Source: Halichondria panicea
Lineage: Eukaryota; Porifera; Demospongiae; Suberitida; Halichondriidae
DNA length: 64,000 bases
Assembly: GCF_963675165.1 (NCBI RefSeq)
Contig: NC_087380.1
Location: 4,393,803-4,457,802, forward strand
Direction of reading: 5' to 3'
Shown here: positions 1 to 38,988 of the stretch, one piece after another
How positions within the stretch are numbered: position 1 is the first letter of the stretch
Layout: every line of letters begins with the position of its first letter
The notes under the pieces: model-generated
Told to the model about the DNA's origin: nothing
Seen by the model: only the letters and a program-made list of their open reading frames with translations
Database searches by the model: none
Position numbers and translations under genes: made by a program

Positions 1-1001
1 AACCCGTAGAGATGGCAGCAGCAACAGAATTACTATTATGGTCACCTGGATGAGACCGTCAGAGAGAAATGGACCATACAGATACATGCTAAACTACACT
101 GCTGAGCAGTCCTCTCCTTACCCCGTTACTAGGGGTATTAGCACTGCTAGCAGTTCCATTAACTTGGCAGGAGATAGTCAGAGCTACTCTGTGCCTATCA
201 TTGACAGTGTCCCATTTGCTGACTTTACTGTGAGCTTGTATGCTTACAATATCGGGAGAGGAGTTGGGTTTAGAAGTACTGTGATGTTTCTTACAGAAAA
301 GACTACATCAATTGGTGAGTAGACTACATTAAGTCAGTTGGAAGATGTATCATTATTTACTTTCGTGTTTACAGAACCTACTAGTGTTTTAAACCTTGTT
401 GGTACAACCACAAGCCACCAATCGTTTCTGGTCAATTGGGATGTTCCACAATTTCCGAACTCTGAAATAATTAACTATATTATCTACTATACAATAGCAA
501 GTGCTATCCAAAATTTCCCTATCAATGATAGTGGATACACTTTTGTCAATCAGATCACTGACACGACTTATGATGTAATGAACCTTGATCCGTTCACCAA
601 CTACACTGTTCATGTTAGAGCAATTGGCAACCCGAACCTGCAAGGTTCGGTTGTGGAGGAAATACTTGTACGAACCAATATCACCAATCCTTCAGCCGTT
701 GTGAACCTAACAGTAGAAGCTAATTTATCTACAGAAATTATAGTCACATGGAACCCTCCCACTAAACCTAATGGTCCGATCTCACACTACGTAGTGTACT
801 ATACAAAAGGTAGCACTCCTCAAACAGGAACTATCTCTAGTTCCGGGTATGCACAGCTGACGACAACGGGAACAATGGTCAGCATTCGACAACTTGACCC
901 TTTCACATACTACCAAATTCATGTTCAACCATTTGTGACCGAGATTCCATATGTACTTGAAGGCACAATAGGCACAGAGATTGTGATGAGGACGTTTTCA
1001 G
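1..1001 (+). other. Three FN3 domains of gene 1
   Basis: The exon ending at 314 (donor GTGAGT at 315) encodes most of one FN3 unit with the core Trp in [15 protein letters not shown]. Exon 375-1001 encodes two further units in one exon, with cores [13 protein letters not shown] and [13 protein letters not shown] and the usual late motifs YTVHVRA and YQIHVQP. Many Asn-X-Ser/Thr sites suggest an extracellular glycosylated stalk. The same two-exon block occurs in RPTP-B, but gene 1 has about three extra residues near IIDSV in the first unit. Confidence 0.85.
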
Positions 1002-36600: not shown

Positions 36601-38988
36601 CAGGAGTCACTATATAGAAGTAATTATCAATCAAGACTAACATTCTAAAGAAACAGAATCCATGCACTAAGTACACCATGCATTATCAAAAGCAACATGC
36701 ACAGAACTGAAGGATTCCAAACCTACAGTACTTTGTAAGCTTCACAAACAGTTACATAACACTCACATAGCAATTCTCCTTGATTAGACTTTGCAGTGTA
36801 ATTGATCATGTCCACTATGACTGAAGCAACACATTGGTATAATCCTTCATTACCAAAATTTACAGAATTGAAGGTGAGATTTTGTGTAAAGCGTTTAAAC
36901 TCGGGATCACCAATCTTGTCCCATCGATAGCTAGGTGCAGGGAATCCCAAGGCCTCGCAAGTAAATGAAACTGATTCTGGGACAGTTGCTAGTATTTGTT
37001 GTGGATGAGTTACAATGTATGGTTGAATGTACAGTGTGAGACTAGCGTTGCTAATGCCGGCAGCGTTGCTGACAACACAGGTGTACTCGCCTCCATCACT
37101 AGCATCAGCTAGAAAGATAGATAGTGTGGGTTGACTCCTTATAGTAGTGTTCATTCCATTTCTCAGCCATTGGTACACATTATTGGGTCCACCACGAGCA
37201 GAGCAAGTGAGGTTGACATCCTCACCGAAATTTACCACGTTGAAGGGTGTGGCATTCACAGATAGGTCACCAGGGGAAACTAAAGAATGTGGTCATTTAC
37301 ATGTTAAAATGAGAGTGGCCACTGCATCAGAATTAATGGCAGTTCGACCTTCGAGGCCGAGGGTAAGCCTCAAGGCAAAGAATGAATGGTTTACGTCGCC
37401 ATAAATTTCTAATGGAGAGACAATAAGTGTGCAATAAGTGTACCTATGAGAAAGAAAAATGCTTGCTACCCCAGCTACCTCACCTTGGTTATAGTCATCT
37501 ATATAAAATACAGTGTCTACAAAGACTAAAACGATAAGCTTGTGGGAGCCCCATTGTTCTACCTTTCCTGGTATCTACCGAGCCCCACTCATCTGTCATG
37601 CCCTTGCCATGTACAGCGAACTAGTCCCACGCTTCACTAACATCATTAAAATTAACAGTGTGTGCTCGAGGCAAGCTGGAAAGTTTATGAGGAATGTGCT
37701 CGGGGGCTGGGAGTTCATGGAAGTTACAACCTGCCTAGTTGCTATGATACAGAGGCCAAGTGGGATATATTAGAAGCAATTAAGTATCCACTGTCTATGC
37801 AATGCAAGATAGCGAGAGATCCACAAATTAATCACCTTAGTGATGTATACTTATACTCTTTCTTATATGCAATACCTATAGTGGATGCATATTGGCATGC
37901 ATGCAAGGAAAACCTAGCAGGCAAAGGCTTATATTTTTTGTTCATATCAAAATATGCATATAGGATTGTCATGTTATGCATGATACAGTCCATTACAATT
38001 AAATGCAAGACTTTACATACCTGTTAGGCTGAAATTTTCAGAGTAGCAAATCCTATCAGGAAGAGATACAACGCACACATAGTATCCCTCATCTCCAAAA
38101 TTTGTGGAATTGAAAGTCAAATTGCTCCCTATAGTAACTACTGAACCATTTGCCAAAAAGGAGGGCAGAATTGGTGAAGCAGTAGAGTTTGTGACAGAGC
38201 CAGAACCAGAGCCGAGCATACTCCCAGATCTGCTGCTCGATCCAAGCGCACTCCCAGATCCGCTGTTGTTGGGTGGAGAGTTTGTGACAGAGCCAGAACC
38301 AGAGCCGAGCATACTCCCAGATCTGCTGCTCGATCCAAGCGCACTCCCAGATCCGCTGTTGTTGGGTGGAGAGCCAGTGCCAGAGCCAGTGCCAGAGCCA
38401 GAGCCAGAGCCAGTACCAGAGCCAGAGCCAGAGCCGAGCATACTCCCAGATCCACTGCCTAATCCAAGCGCACTCCCAGATCCACTGCTGCTGGGCGGAG
38501 AGCCTGTGCCAGAGCCAGTGCCAGAGCCAGAGCCAGTGCCAGAGCCAGAGCCAGAGCCAGTGCTTCCTTTGTCACCATCACCACTACCACTAGACATCGC
38601 TGAAACACACTCAGTAGAACTTGCCATCTGGAAAGCCTCTAAGTCAGCACTATTCAGTTTTATCCATTGTATTTGATCCTCAGTTGCAAGACTTCCAGTG
38701 TTGCAGCTCACTGTGAGGGGTCCACCTCCATTCCGGACAAATTGTTCAGATGGCGTCACCACTGGCAAAACTGTATAAAATGAAATGTAAAGTGTGACTG
38801 CATTGATCTGAGCTGACTGATAATAGATAGTGCTCTGGTGCAATGCTTCCAAAGATGGGGCGGATCAAAAGCTAGATCTAGCTAGATTGTGTGATTTTGT
38901 GTACTAGCTACTCACCTTGACCAGTGATACCACTAAATAAACAAAGTATCACAAGAACAGATAGCTTTGCACAAGATGAATGCCACAT
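23528..38988 (-). CDS. Receptor-type protein tyrosine phosphatase B, with Ser-Gly repeat in Ig1
   Basis: I trace a complete minus-strand gene of 38 exons totalling 9777 coding bases (about 3258 aa) from ATG 38988 to TAA 23528. Order: signal peptide ([18 protein letters not shown]), 7 Ig domains, about 17 FN3 units, TM, D1, D2. It matches RPTP-A exon for exon over most of its length with the same phases. It lacks the first Ig of RPTP-A, the Ig units matching 5262-5908 and the four FN3 units matching 13345-15580. It has one intact FN3 exon that is a relic in RPTP-A, a different membrane-proximal FN3 pair shared with gene 1, and an additional intron in D1. It shares a 147-bp intergenic start region with KICS2. 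D1 should be an active membrane tyrosine phosphatase. Confidence 0.9.
24750..26338 (-). other. Wedge region and catalytic PTP domain D1 of RPTP-B
   Basis: Exons 26338-26244, 26194-26107, 26011-25935, 25870-25834, 25773-25676, 25525-25115 and 24993-24750. Motifs: [65 protein letters not shown] and MVQTE. All catalytic residues are present. A 60-bp intron (25774-25833) splits the exon that is continuous in RPTP-A (20332-20466); the two pieces (37 + 98 bases) add up to the same 135 bases. Confidence 0.9.
26439..27135 (-). other. Juxtamembrane unit, TM and start of cytoplasmic region of RPTP-B
   Basis: Exon 27135-26813 encodes the membrane-proximal domain ([29 protein letters not shown]). Exon 26751-26646 encodes about 25 apolar residues ([18 protein letters not shown]..) and MRFRK. 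Exon 26587-26439 encodes a Ser/Thr-rich juxtamembrane stretch unrelated in sequence to that of RPTP-A (19524-19651), so signalling inputs between TM and D1 may differ. Confidence 0.85.
29261..29272 (-). other. Furin-type RRRR site in RPTP-B
   Basis: Four arginine codons in [11 protein letters not shown] lie at the same position as the RPTP-A site at 12507-12518. Conservation of this loop between paralogues supports a functional cleavage site. Confidence 0.6.
32314..32363 (+). repeat. (CT)n microsatellite
   Basis: About 25 uninterrupted CT units lie in the long RPTP-B intron. It is likely to be polymorphic between individuals. Confidence 0.95.
32619..32853. repeat. Inverted-repeat element in RPTP-B intron
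   Basis: The left arm GGGGATCCGTGGCACCCTGG..CAGGGTGTCATACAGG pairs with the right arm CCTGTATGACACCCTG..GGATCCCC. The centre carries purine-rich GGGGGG tracts. This is consistent with a small MITE or foldback element. Confidence 0.6.
34910..35338. other. RPTP-B intron between the last Ig and the first FN3
   Basis: This 429-bp intron shows no gene-like content. The corresponding RPTP-A intron (7924-7988) is only 65 bp, so this one has been enlarged. Confidence 0.5.
35339..37279 (-). other. Ig domains 2-7 of RPTP-B
   Basis: Exons 37279-36767 (two Ig), 36609-36088 (two), 36021-35770 (one), and 35701-35577 with 35513-35339 (one split Ig). Exon lengths equal those of RPTP-A exons 6-10 except the first (513 against 510). 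Protein and even intron sequences are nearly identical to RPTP-A 5978-7923. Confidence 0.88.
37510..38012 (+). other. Orphan open frame in RPTP-B intron
   Basis: In the intron 37280-38020 the plus strand holds two overlapping open frames (about 37513-37773 and 37662-38027) with non-repetitive, protein-like composition, for example [12 protein letters not shown] and [17 protein letters not shown]. No family is recognised. It may be a decayed, frameshifted insertion such as a transposon or retrocopy fragment rather than a gene. Confidence 0.3.
38021..38770 (-). other. First Ig domain of RPTP-B with expanded Ser-Gly repeat
   Basis: The exon encodes one Ig domain (Cys in VSCNTG, Trp in IQWIK, Cys in GYYVCVV). 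An insertion of about 130 residues between the C and E strands is made of Ser-Gly dipeptides with Thr, Pro, Leu and Asn. A 93-bp unit (31 codons) is repeated at 38185 and 38278 (plus coordinates), with more degenerate copies up to about 38580. Ser-Gly runs next to acidic residues ([13 protein letters not shown]) are the classical sites for glycosaminoglycan attachment in proteoglycans. RPTP-A has only SGSGSG at the same place. Confidence 0.85.

Follow-up and report, generated by a model that had tools for sequence, protein, structure and literature searches.

The paired receptors of vertebrates (KIR, LILR, SIRP and FcR-like) carry near-identical ectodomains on opposite signalling ends and turn over by duplication and exchange, and their inhibitory member recruits a cytosolic phosphatase via an immunoreceptor tyrosine-based inhibitory motif (ITIM). 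We know of no established self/non-self receptor in sponges; the aggregation factors, which are secreted proteoglycan cores, have been proposed to take part in sponge allorecognition. A study of Amphimedon grafts (PMC5450542) describes a specific discrimination of self and non-self in sponges, a sign of a polymorphic genetic system; the terms phosphatase, Sushi, immunoglobulin, tyrosine kinase and receptor do not occur in its main text. Judged by title and start of abstract, the open-licence PMC literature yielded no report of sponge receptor phosphatases paired with tyrosine-tail receptors, which is not proof of absence. According to passages of PMC12065747, the candidate allorecognition proteins show no conservation among sponges, cnidarians and ascidians. 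The FcoRs of Botryllus schlosseri (fuhc locus) combine a V-type immunoglobulin (Ig) domain, Sushi, two C2-type Ig domains and a membrane segment at 53 loci, and their tails bear ITIM, hemi-immunoreceptor tyrosine-based activation (hemITAM) or YxxI/L/V core motifs (PMC12065747). The Alr genes of Hydractinia are described, in parts of PMC11999971, as a cluster of 41 genes with V-set and I-set Ig domains and, in parts of PMC12065747, as bearing ITIM/hemITAM-type motifs. Here we analyse a 64,000-nucleotide stretch of the genome of the sponge Halichondria panicea (C4:4393803-4457802; the window), which contains two receptor phosphatases, RPTP-A and RPTP-B, and the 3' end of a tyrosine-tailed receptor, gene 1. 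Both here and in large arrays elsewhere on C4, receptors of the same extracellular modules end either in a phosphatase or in a short YxxV/I tail, and in a third group in a kinase; both the endings and the modules of the ectodomain have repeatedly been swapped between genes, usually at phase-1 introns.

All results derive from the DNA sequence of one genome assembly of 131 Mb in 39 contigs. Exon models come from a small predictor of exon chains for which the window itself served as training sequence, and negative positions lie left of the window start. An earlier note on this DNA had described a three-gene receptor cluster, and all three genes are present in our exon models. Gene 1 is about 22 kb long and lies mostly left of the window, from about -19377 (C4:4374425) to 2529:

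-19377 to -94, + strand, left of the window: remaining Ig and fibronectin type III (FN3) ectodomain (exon models)
-33 to 314 and 375-1001, + strand: last FN3 exons (exon models, fn3 by Pfam, 85-89% protein identity to RPTP-B exons)
997-1185, + strand: chimera junction (RPTP-B homology ends at about 997, the modelled donor follows 1001, and tail-receptor homology runs from the next exon; blastn)
1185-1364, + strand: Sushi (CCP) exon 1 (exon model; Pfam Sushi)
1431-1602, + strand: Sushi (CCP) exon 2 (boundaries by eye; Pfam Sushi)
1677-2003, + strand: membrane-proximal Ig-like exon of the array family, C..CC..W..GxYCC..C (start by eye; alignment, AlphaFold model)
2098-2242, + strand: transmembrane exon (exon model)
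2298-2529, + strand: cytoplasmic tail with six tyrosines (LTYQSS, PTYDTI, VTYEEI, GNYDCT, EAYETT, EIYDNL)
33475-37287, - strand: Ig/FN3 block of RPTP-B, about 3.8 kb, present three times in tandem in gene 1 left of the window (blastn)

Gene 1 is an RPTP-B ectodomain joined to a YEEI tail by a swap of endings. We regard it as a chimera because all 23 RPTP-B ectodomain exons of at least 60 nt have an open counterpart in gene 1 and because the homology stops on an exon end (997-1001). With introns included, positions -19518 to 997 match RPTP-B at 92-93% over the four longest stretches and at 83-90% over two pieces of the 5' end, and 42 exon pairs, with tandem copies each counted, give a nonsynonymous divergence (dN) of 0.038 and a synonymous divergence (dS) of 0.082 (ratio 0.46). 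Simulated neutral drift would leave about 9 stop codons (3-16 in 200 simulations) in 2,447 codons, and the gene 1 models show none, a comparison to be read with caution as exon models are built to be open. Pfam detects fn3 and Sushi at the 3' end of the gene, and parts of its 3' exons align by blastn with genes of the arrays on C4 (1.10-1.13, 1.66 and 2.92 Mb) and with C5. The first Ig exon, which holds a Gly/Ser repeat, measures 750 nt in RPTP-B (38770-38021, - strand) and 498 nt in gene 1, possibly a length polymorphism. The earlier note had also raised further copies at the left edge; we found no member of the FN3 group within the 10 kb that precede gene 1, and the penultimate FN3 exon has only three matches in the genome, one per window gene (that of RPTP-A being only 31% identical), a distribution not expected by chance. 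The edge of the three-gene cluster is instead marked by a gene resembling adhesion G-protein-coupled receptors just left of gene 1 (C4:4366135-4371388; GPS motif 1.8e-13, 7tm_2 below cut-off).

RPTP-A lies on the + strand and RPTP-B on the - strand, and the two genes therefore converge tail to tail:

3170-23117, + strand: RPTP-A, whole model (exon model; stop codon not reached)
3285-7961, + strand: RPTP-A Ig-domain exons (exon model)
8009-18869, + strand: RPTP-A FN3 exons (exon model)
19012-19425, + strand: RPTP-A juxtamembrane and transmembrane exon (exon model)
19992-21378, + strand: RPTP-A phosphatase D1 (exon model, Pfam, protein comparison)
21588-23117, + strand: RPTP-A phosphatase D2 (exon model)
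about 38932-23868, - strand: RPTP-B, whole model (exon model; no stop codon reached, first exons not resolved)
35339-38770, - strand: RPTP-B Ig exons, the first with the Gly/Ser repeat (exon model, Pfam)
27331-34909, - strand: RPTP-B FN3 exons (exon model, Pfam)
26684-27135, - strand: RPTP-B juxtamembrane and transmembrane exons (exon model)
25115-26194, - strand: RPTP-B phosphatase D1 (exon model, Pfam, protein comparison)
23868-24906, - strand: RPTP-B phosphatase D2 (exon model, Pfam, protein comparison)
6036-8288, + strand: RPTP-A tract like RPTP-B 37218-34610 (93-94% DNA identity, introns included, two pieces; blastn)
10144-13287, + strand: RPTP-A tract like RPTP-B 31614-28525 (88% DNA identity, introns included; blastn)

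Pfam finds Ig and fn3 domains in the RPTP-B ectodomain followed by two Y_phosphatase domains (2.4e-163), and one Y_phosphatase domain in D1 of RPTP-A. The MVQTE loop is kept in D1 of both genes, while D2 of both reads WPE, as does D2 of PTPRS. The D1 catalytic motifs of RPTP-A and RPTP-B thus bear out the two tyrosine phosphatases named earlier, and D1 of each is expected to be active, a prediction made from sequence. RPTP-B D1-D2 matches PTPRS best (1.5e-205), then PTPRF/LAR (3e-199), with both domains aligned; a 138-residue stretch of RPTP-A D1 matches PTPRS (5.2e-75) and LAR (1.4e-73), with PTPR-alpha close at 1.2e-72. Both genes have an N-terminal Ig and then FN3 ectodomain and a single membrane segment, and we accordingly class them, by these predicted features, as LAR-type receptor tyrosine phosphatases.

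The ectodomains of RPTP-A and RPTP-B differ by a dS of 0.23 over their 23 best-matched exons, whereas their phosphatase parts differ by a dS of 1.40 over eight hand-paired exons, several of them saturated (D1 1.63, D2 1.23). This contrast points to two old phosphatases with a partly homogenised ectodomain, a theme that is also that of the arrays. The mosaic identity proposed earlier holds for these two genes, whose shared tracts reach 88-94% DNA identity with introns included, but does not extend to gene 1, which carries RPTP-B's ectodomain and is no third independent mosaic. The interchangeable phase-1 exons were confirmed: among ectodomain exons of at least 60 nt, phase 1-1 is found in 35 of 43 in gene 1, 16 of 28 in RPTP-A (up to 16.1 kb) and 18 of 23 in RPTP-B.

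The gene 1 tail belongs to a family with 39 genome matches. Besides gene 1 itself, these comprise 36 copies on C4 (9 at 0.27-0.32 Mb, 12 at 1.10-1.14 Mb, 13 at 1.54-1.67 Mb and 2 at 2.92 Mb), one on C5 and a doubtful one on C10 (E 0.49). Family genes run from an outer Ig-like exon through several Sushi exons and often an inner Ig-like exon to a membrane exon and the tail, typically DIPLTDQGQSAAATYETVPATYEEIPASREVKGDYSYTQNNAYSTV, and at 1.10-1.14 Mb they mostly lie 2-4.3 kb apart. YEEI is present in all 25 family tails that are whole in the examined loci (24 on C4, one on C5) and in gene 1, that is in 26 of 26, and this count is unchanged when tails are gathered by a pattern that does not require YEEI. 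The six-tyrosine tail ascribed to gene 1 is confirmed, and its description as ITIM-like is partly so. Against the strict ITIM, [SIVL]xYxx[ILV], and the immunoreceptor tyrosine-based activation motif (ITAM), YxxL/I, 6-12 residues, YxxL/I, gene 1 has one strict ITIM, VTYEEI, and two sites with the YxxI/L core, YDTI and YDNL; the family as a whole does not share the strict motif, which is found in 2 of the 25 fetched tails. Reading YETVPATYEEI as an ITAM was rejected, as only 3 residues separate its two motifs, and likewise in gene 1. Two tail-receptor copies 8.2 kb apart at C4:2920001-2936000 have identical inner Ig exons, either because the locus duplicated very recently or because the assembly contains it twice.

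On C4 the phosphatase profile matches no fewer than 49 distinct sites from 0.09 to 2.61 Mb (counted by eye among the matches listed, with 150 scored out of 361 candidates and a profile position of at least 217 required). Six of the seven phosphatase loci that we read consist of Sushi and Ig-like exons, a membrane exon and the phosphatase, and the seventh (0.50 Mb) has a Thr/Ser-rich ectodomain. Downstream of 32 inner Ig exons on C4 there is a tail at 578-1,143 bp in 19 cases and a phosphatase at 2.2-4.2 kb in 13. A tree of these exons and one from C1 (the first 33 of 150 rows among 281 candidates, later rows being fragments or more distant and left out) requires 7 changes between tail and phosphatase, 5 of them forced by well-supported branches, and a single change suffices in 0% of 200 bootstraps. 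The outer Ig tree (23 exons out of 150 rows, labelled tail or phosphatase by array position and not gene by gene) has 8 label changes against a shuffled mean of 7.4 (439 of 500 as low), that is, random mixing. The membrane exon type GGVVAGVVIVLLILAAVIVVGIIVGVYFW is found in 11 of the 12 phosphatase loci examined, and two tail genes (1.1008 and 0.3145 Mb) carry this phosphatase-type membrane exon at 97.8 and 99.0% DNA identity; such swaps of endings are therefore recent, and gene 1 represents a further case. These receptors are alike in their ectodomains, opposite in their ends, clustered, and have exchanged parts between both kinds, as in paired receptors. In 4 of the 7 phosphatase loci (L012 at C4:352001-362000, L014, L015 and L016) an Ig exon lies between membrane exon and phosphatase and hence inside the cell; that of L012 is I-set by Pfam, and such a position is, to our knowledge, unusual for a receptor phosphatase.

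The pairing recurs with other tails and other ectodomains. Of 17 matches to a second tail class (ETYKKKQQPVYEAPDQVACYEDVS...IYDN), some being fragments of a single copy, 15 lie at C4:0.96-1.01 Mb and 2 on C1. The inner Ig exon of this class also occurs in phosphatases at 0.53-0.59 Mb; a tree of 24 chosen rows (labels weak for row 979647, with no tail within 4.5 kb, and row 1010273, tail E 0.08) has 4 changes, all 4 forced. A further class (HEYEEVSKF..GEYEMV..GYENR) ends a receptor at C4:0.138-0.150 Mb (loci L021 and L087, 138.5-151.7 kb), and a related tail ends one at C4:2.02 Mb (L088); both receptors are built from Ig-like and Sushi modules of the types seen above, together with many Ig domains, and that at 138-151 kb has FN3 domains too. 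A third ectodomain has 35 matches at C4:2.52-2.76 Mb (L019, L020), one of them at 1.65 Mb, of which 14 end in a tyrosine kinase and 12 in a tail (VTYEEVPGP..NEAYGV), with 9 unassigned (129 of 1,749 kinase candidates scored; the kinase at 2727031 was taken from the gene model of locus L020); the tail-linked copy tested had no Pfam match in this ectodomain. A shared ectodomain with a catalytic end on one side and a tyrosine tail on the other thus occurs four times over, in gene 1, in the inner Ig arrays, in the second tail class and, with kinases, in the third group; tails or ectodomains differ between these cases, and the shared ectodomains with opposite cytoplasmic ends that had been noticed in the window recur on C4 in further ectodomain groups, with repeated exchange. 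Among the matches listed, kinase domains in long open frames are also numerous at C1:15.5-17.4 Mb and C10:1.70-1.94 Mb.

The Ig-like exon of gene 1 has no Pfam match. An alignment of 41 copies has invariant columns that include C32, C39, C40, W54, G89, Y91, C92 and C105 (gene 1 numbering), and an AlphaFold model of the domain forms a beta sandwich (mean predicted local distance difference test, pLDDT, 78.9; predicted template modelling score, pTM, 0.73; two of five models below 60). By VIA structure comparison its best neighbour is NCAM2 (Z 9.6, root mean square deviation 2.4, 85 residues), and the titles of most of the 50 neighbours listed name Ig-domain, antibody or T-cell receptor chains; Foldseek returned nothing under 1e-3 for this model (best E 2.8e-3). 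Judged by the modelled beta sandwich, the array domain has an Ig fold.

We reasoned that the three window genes probably belong to a sponge paired-receptor system, in which one pool of ectodomains would drive opposite phosphotyrosine signals. The tyrosine-rich YxxV/I tail could serve only as a substrate and docking site. The ectodomain pool would recognise variable cell-surface ligands, whether own, foreign or microbial, and Src-type kinases may phosphorylate the tail, pYEEI being the preferred Src SH2 site. A ligand shared by both receptors would cluster them, placing the phosphatase beside the tail and quenching it, whereas a ligand that only the tail receptor engages would leave the tail phosphorylated and able to dock SH2 proteins; the cell would then read the balance of both receptor kinds, much as paired receptors are read by natural killer cells. 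More tentatively, and with less than even expectation, we suggest that the first ~2.9 Mb of C4, to which the window genes are an outlier, may be a sponge recognition complex, in which continual exchange would place one pool of Ig/Sushi ectodomains on phosphatases and on the tails that are their substrates, a neighbouring ectodomain being common to kinases and tails. With writer, eraser and substrate all bearing matched recognition modules, ligand identity alone would set the phosphorylation state at a cell contact, and the complex would supply the receptors that sponge self/non-self recognition has so far lacked.

That these receptors form a paired recognition system, as hypothesised earlier, is plausible from their organisation, yet several observations weigh against it. 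Exchange of ectodomains arises without function in tandem arrays, by unequal crossing-over and gene conversion; of 26 tails just 3, that of gene 1 included, bear a strict ITIM; and LAR-type phosphatases elsewhere act in adhesion and axon guidance. Labels are clustered both in the inner Ig tree (7 changes vs. 10.8 when shuffled, 6 of 500 as low) and in the second-class tree (4 changes vs. about 8, 2-3 of 500 as low), and exchange is therefore limited in each, inner Ig labels being at once clustered and exchanged. The outer Ig tree is without a starred branch and has one forced change. The last D2 exon of RPTP-A and RPTP-B is fairly alike (dS 0.46), so that homogenisation is not limited to ectodomains, and functionless recombination would also produce the homogenised pattern of the two ectodomains. 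The outer Ig domain, finally, has a dN/dS of 0.84, not above 1 (23 rows, 253 pairs), and the inner Ig domain one of 0.55 (33 rows, 357 pairs), taking only pairs with a silent difference of 0.02-0.3; with both values below 1, we rejected hypervariability as judged by dN/dS.

One rival reading is neutral shuffling: phase-1 tandem arrays recombine, and ectodomain sharing would be a by-product between two independent kinds of receptor. The identity tracts of RPTP-A and RPTP-B include introns, which is a mark of recombination and not of protein selection, and the identical inner Ig pair at 2.92 Mb and the three tandem blocks in gene 1 indicate ongoing duplication; nevertheless, the same pairing of catalytic end and tail in four settings, one of them with kinases, the retention of YEEI in 26 of 26 tails and the open frame of gene 1 over a dS of 0.08 all speak against it, and we consider it unlikely. 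Still less probable is that RPTP-A and RPTP-B are ordinary LAR-type adhesion phosphatases beside a degraded copy, gene 1 being no working receptor or its 3' exons a separate small gene. Their phosphatase domains do match PTPRS and LAR/PTPRF best, and small tail-receptor genes do stand on their own, at 1.10-1.14 Mb mostly at a spacing of 2-4.3 kb; but we saw by eye no signal-peptide exon between 1001 and 1185, donor and acceptor phases agree at the gene 1 junction, and 23 of 23 RPTP-B ectodomain exons of at least 60 nt are present and open in gene 1, with a dN/dS of 0.46. A more serious contender, which we hold to be a distinct if minority prospect, is that the arrays are innate immune paired receptors for microbes or parasites, with microbial ligands and no role in sponge self/non-self recognition. 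Receptors with Sushi and Ig domains are frequent in immune systems, and passages of PMC8242945 report large, individual-specific receptor repertoires in Halichondria panicea itself, including SRCR proteins with Sushi and FN3. Under such a role, however, the signalling mechanism would equal that proposed under allorecognition, and the present observations fit both alike.

The remainder of the window holds other features:

40879-41529, - strand: RING-finger protein, adjoining the 5' end of RPTP-B (zf-C3HC4 by Pfam)
47861-49901, - strand: gene of the LBP/BPI/CETP family, which binds lipid or endotoxin (Pfam 7.7e-14)
57842-58100, + strand: Sacsin-domain exon (Pfam 4.7e-35)

Elsewhere in the genome, a silicatein-like gene at C2:659044-660310 reads DCGASYAFSAMG, with a serine where cathepsins have a cysteine, which most likely places the genome among siliceous sponges.

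Several described systems resemble this one in part. The nearest in design is the Botryllus FF/FcoR system, compared here by description: the array tail receptors likewise have an outer Ig-like domain, Sushi, an inner Ig-like domain, a membrane exon and a YxxV/I tail, and are clustered. Unlike in Botryllus, where fester and uncle fester are, in passages of PMC12065747, without a known signalling domain, the sponge partners of the same ectodomain bear a phosphatase or a kinase. The Hydractinia Alr genes are, as here, clustered polygenic Ig-type receptors with tyrosine motifs, whereas the window genes are FN3/Ig/Sushi receptors with phosphatase partners; the Alr-like layout once suggested for gene 1 is not borne out, as that gene has FN3 and Sushi and its Ig-like exon, lacking a Pfam match, is Ig by model only, and we found no basis for treating gene 1 as an Alr relative, from which its domain make-up sets it apart. 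LAR (type IIa) phosphatases have in common with RPTP-A and RPTP-B an Ig and FN3 ectodomain and tandem D1-D2, and differ in that the window genes have many more Ig and FN3 domains than LAR and an ectodomain borne also by a tyrosine-tail receptor. Sponge aggregation factors are secreted, in contrast to the receptors described here. To vertebrate paired receptors the likeness lies in near-identical ectodomains on opposite signalling ends, and the difference in a sponge phosphatase that is built into the partner receptor. This suggests a separate origin of paired activating/inhibitory receptors in sponges, where the phosphatase is part of the receptor instead of being recruited to an ITIM, and the clustered receptors with phosphatase, tail or kinase ends would provide a named gene set for sponge recognition. 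What is new in the sponge genes is a partner of identical ectodomain type that is a phosphatase or a kinase in its own right.

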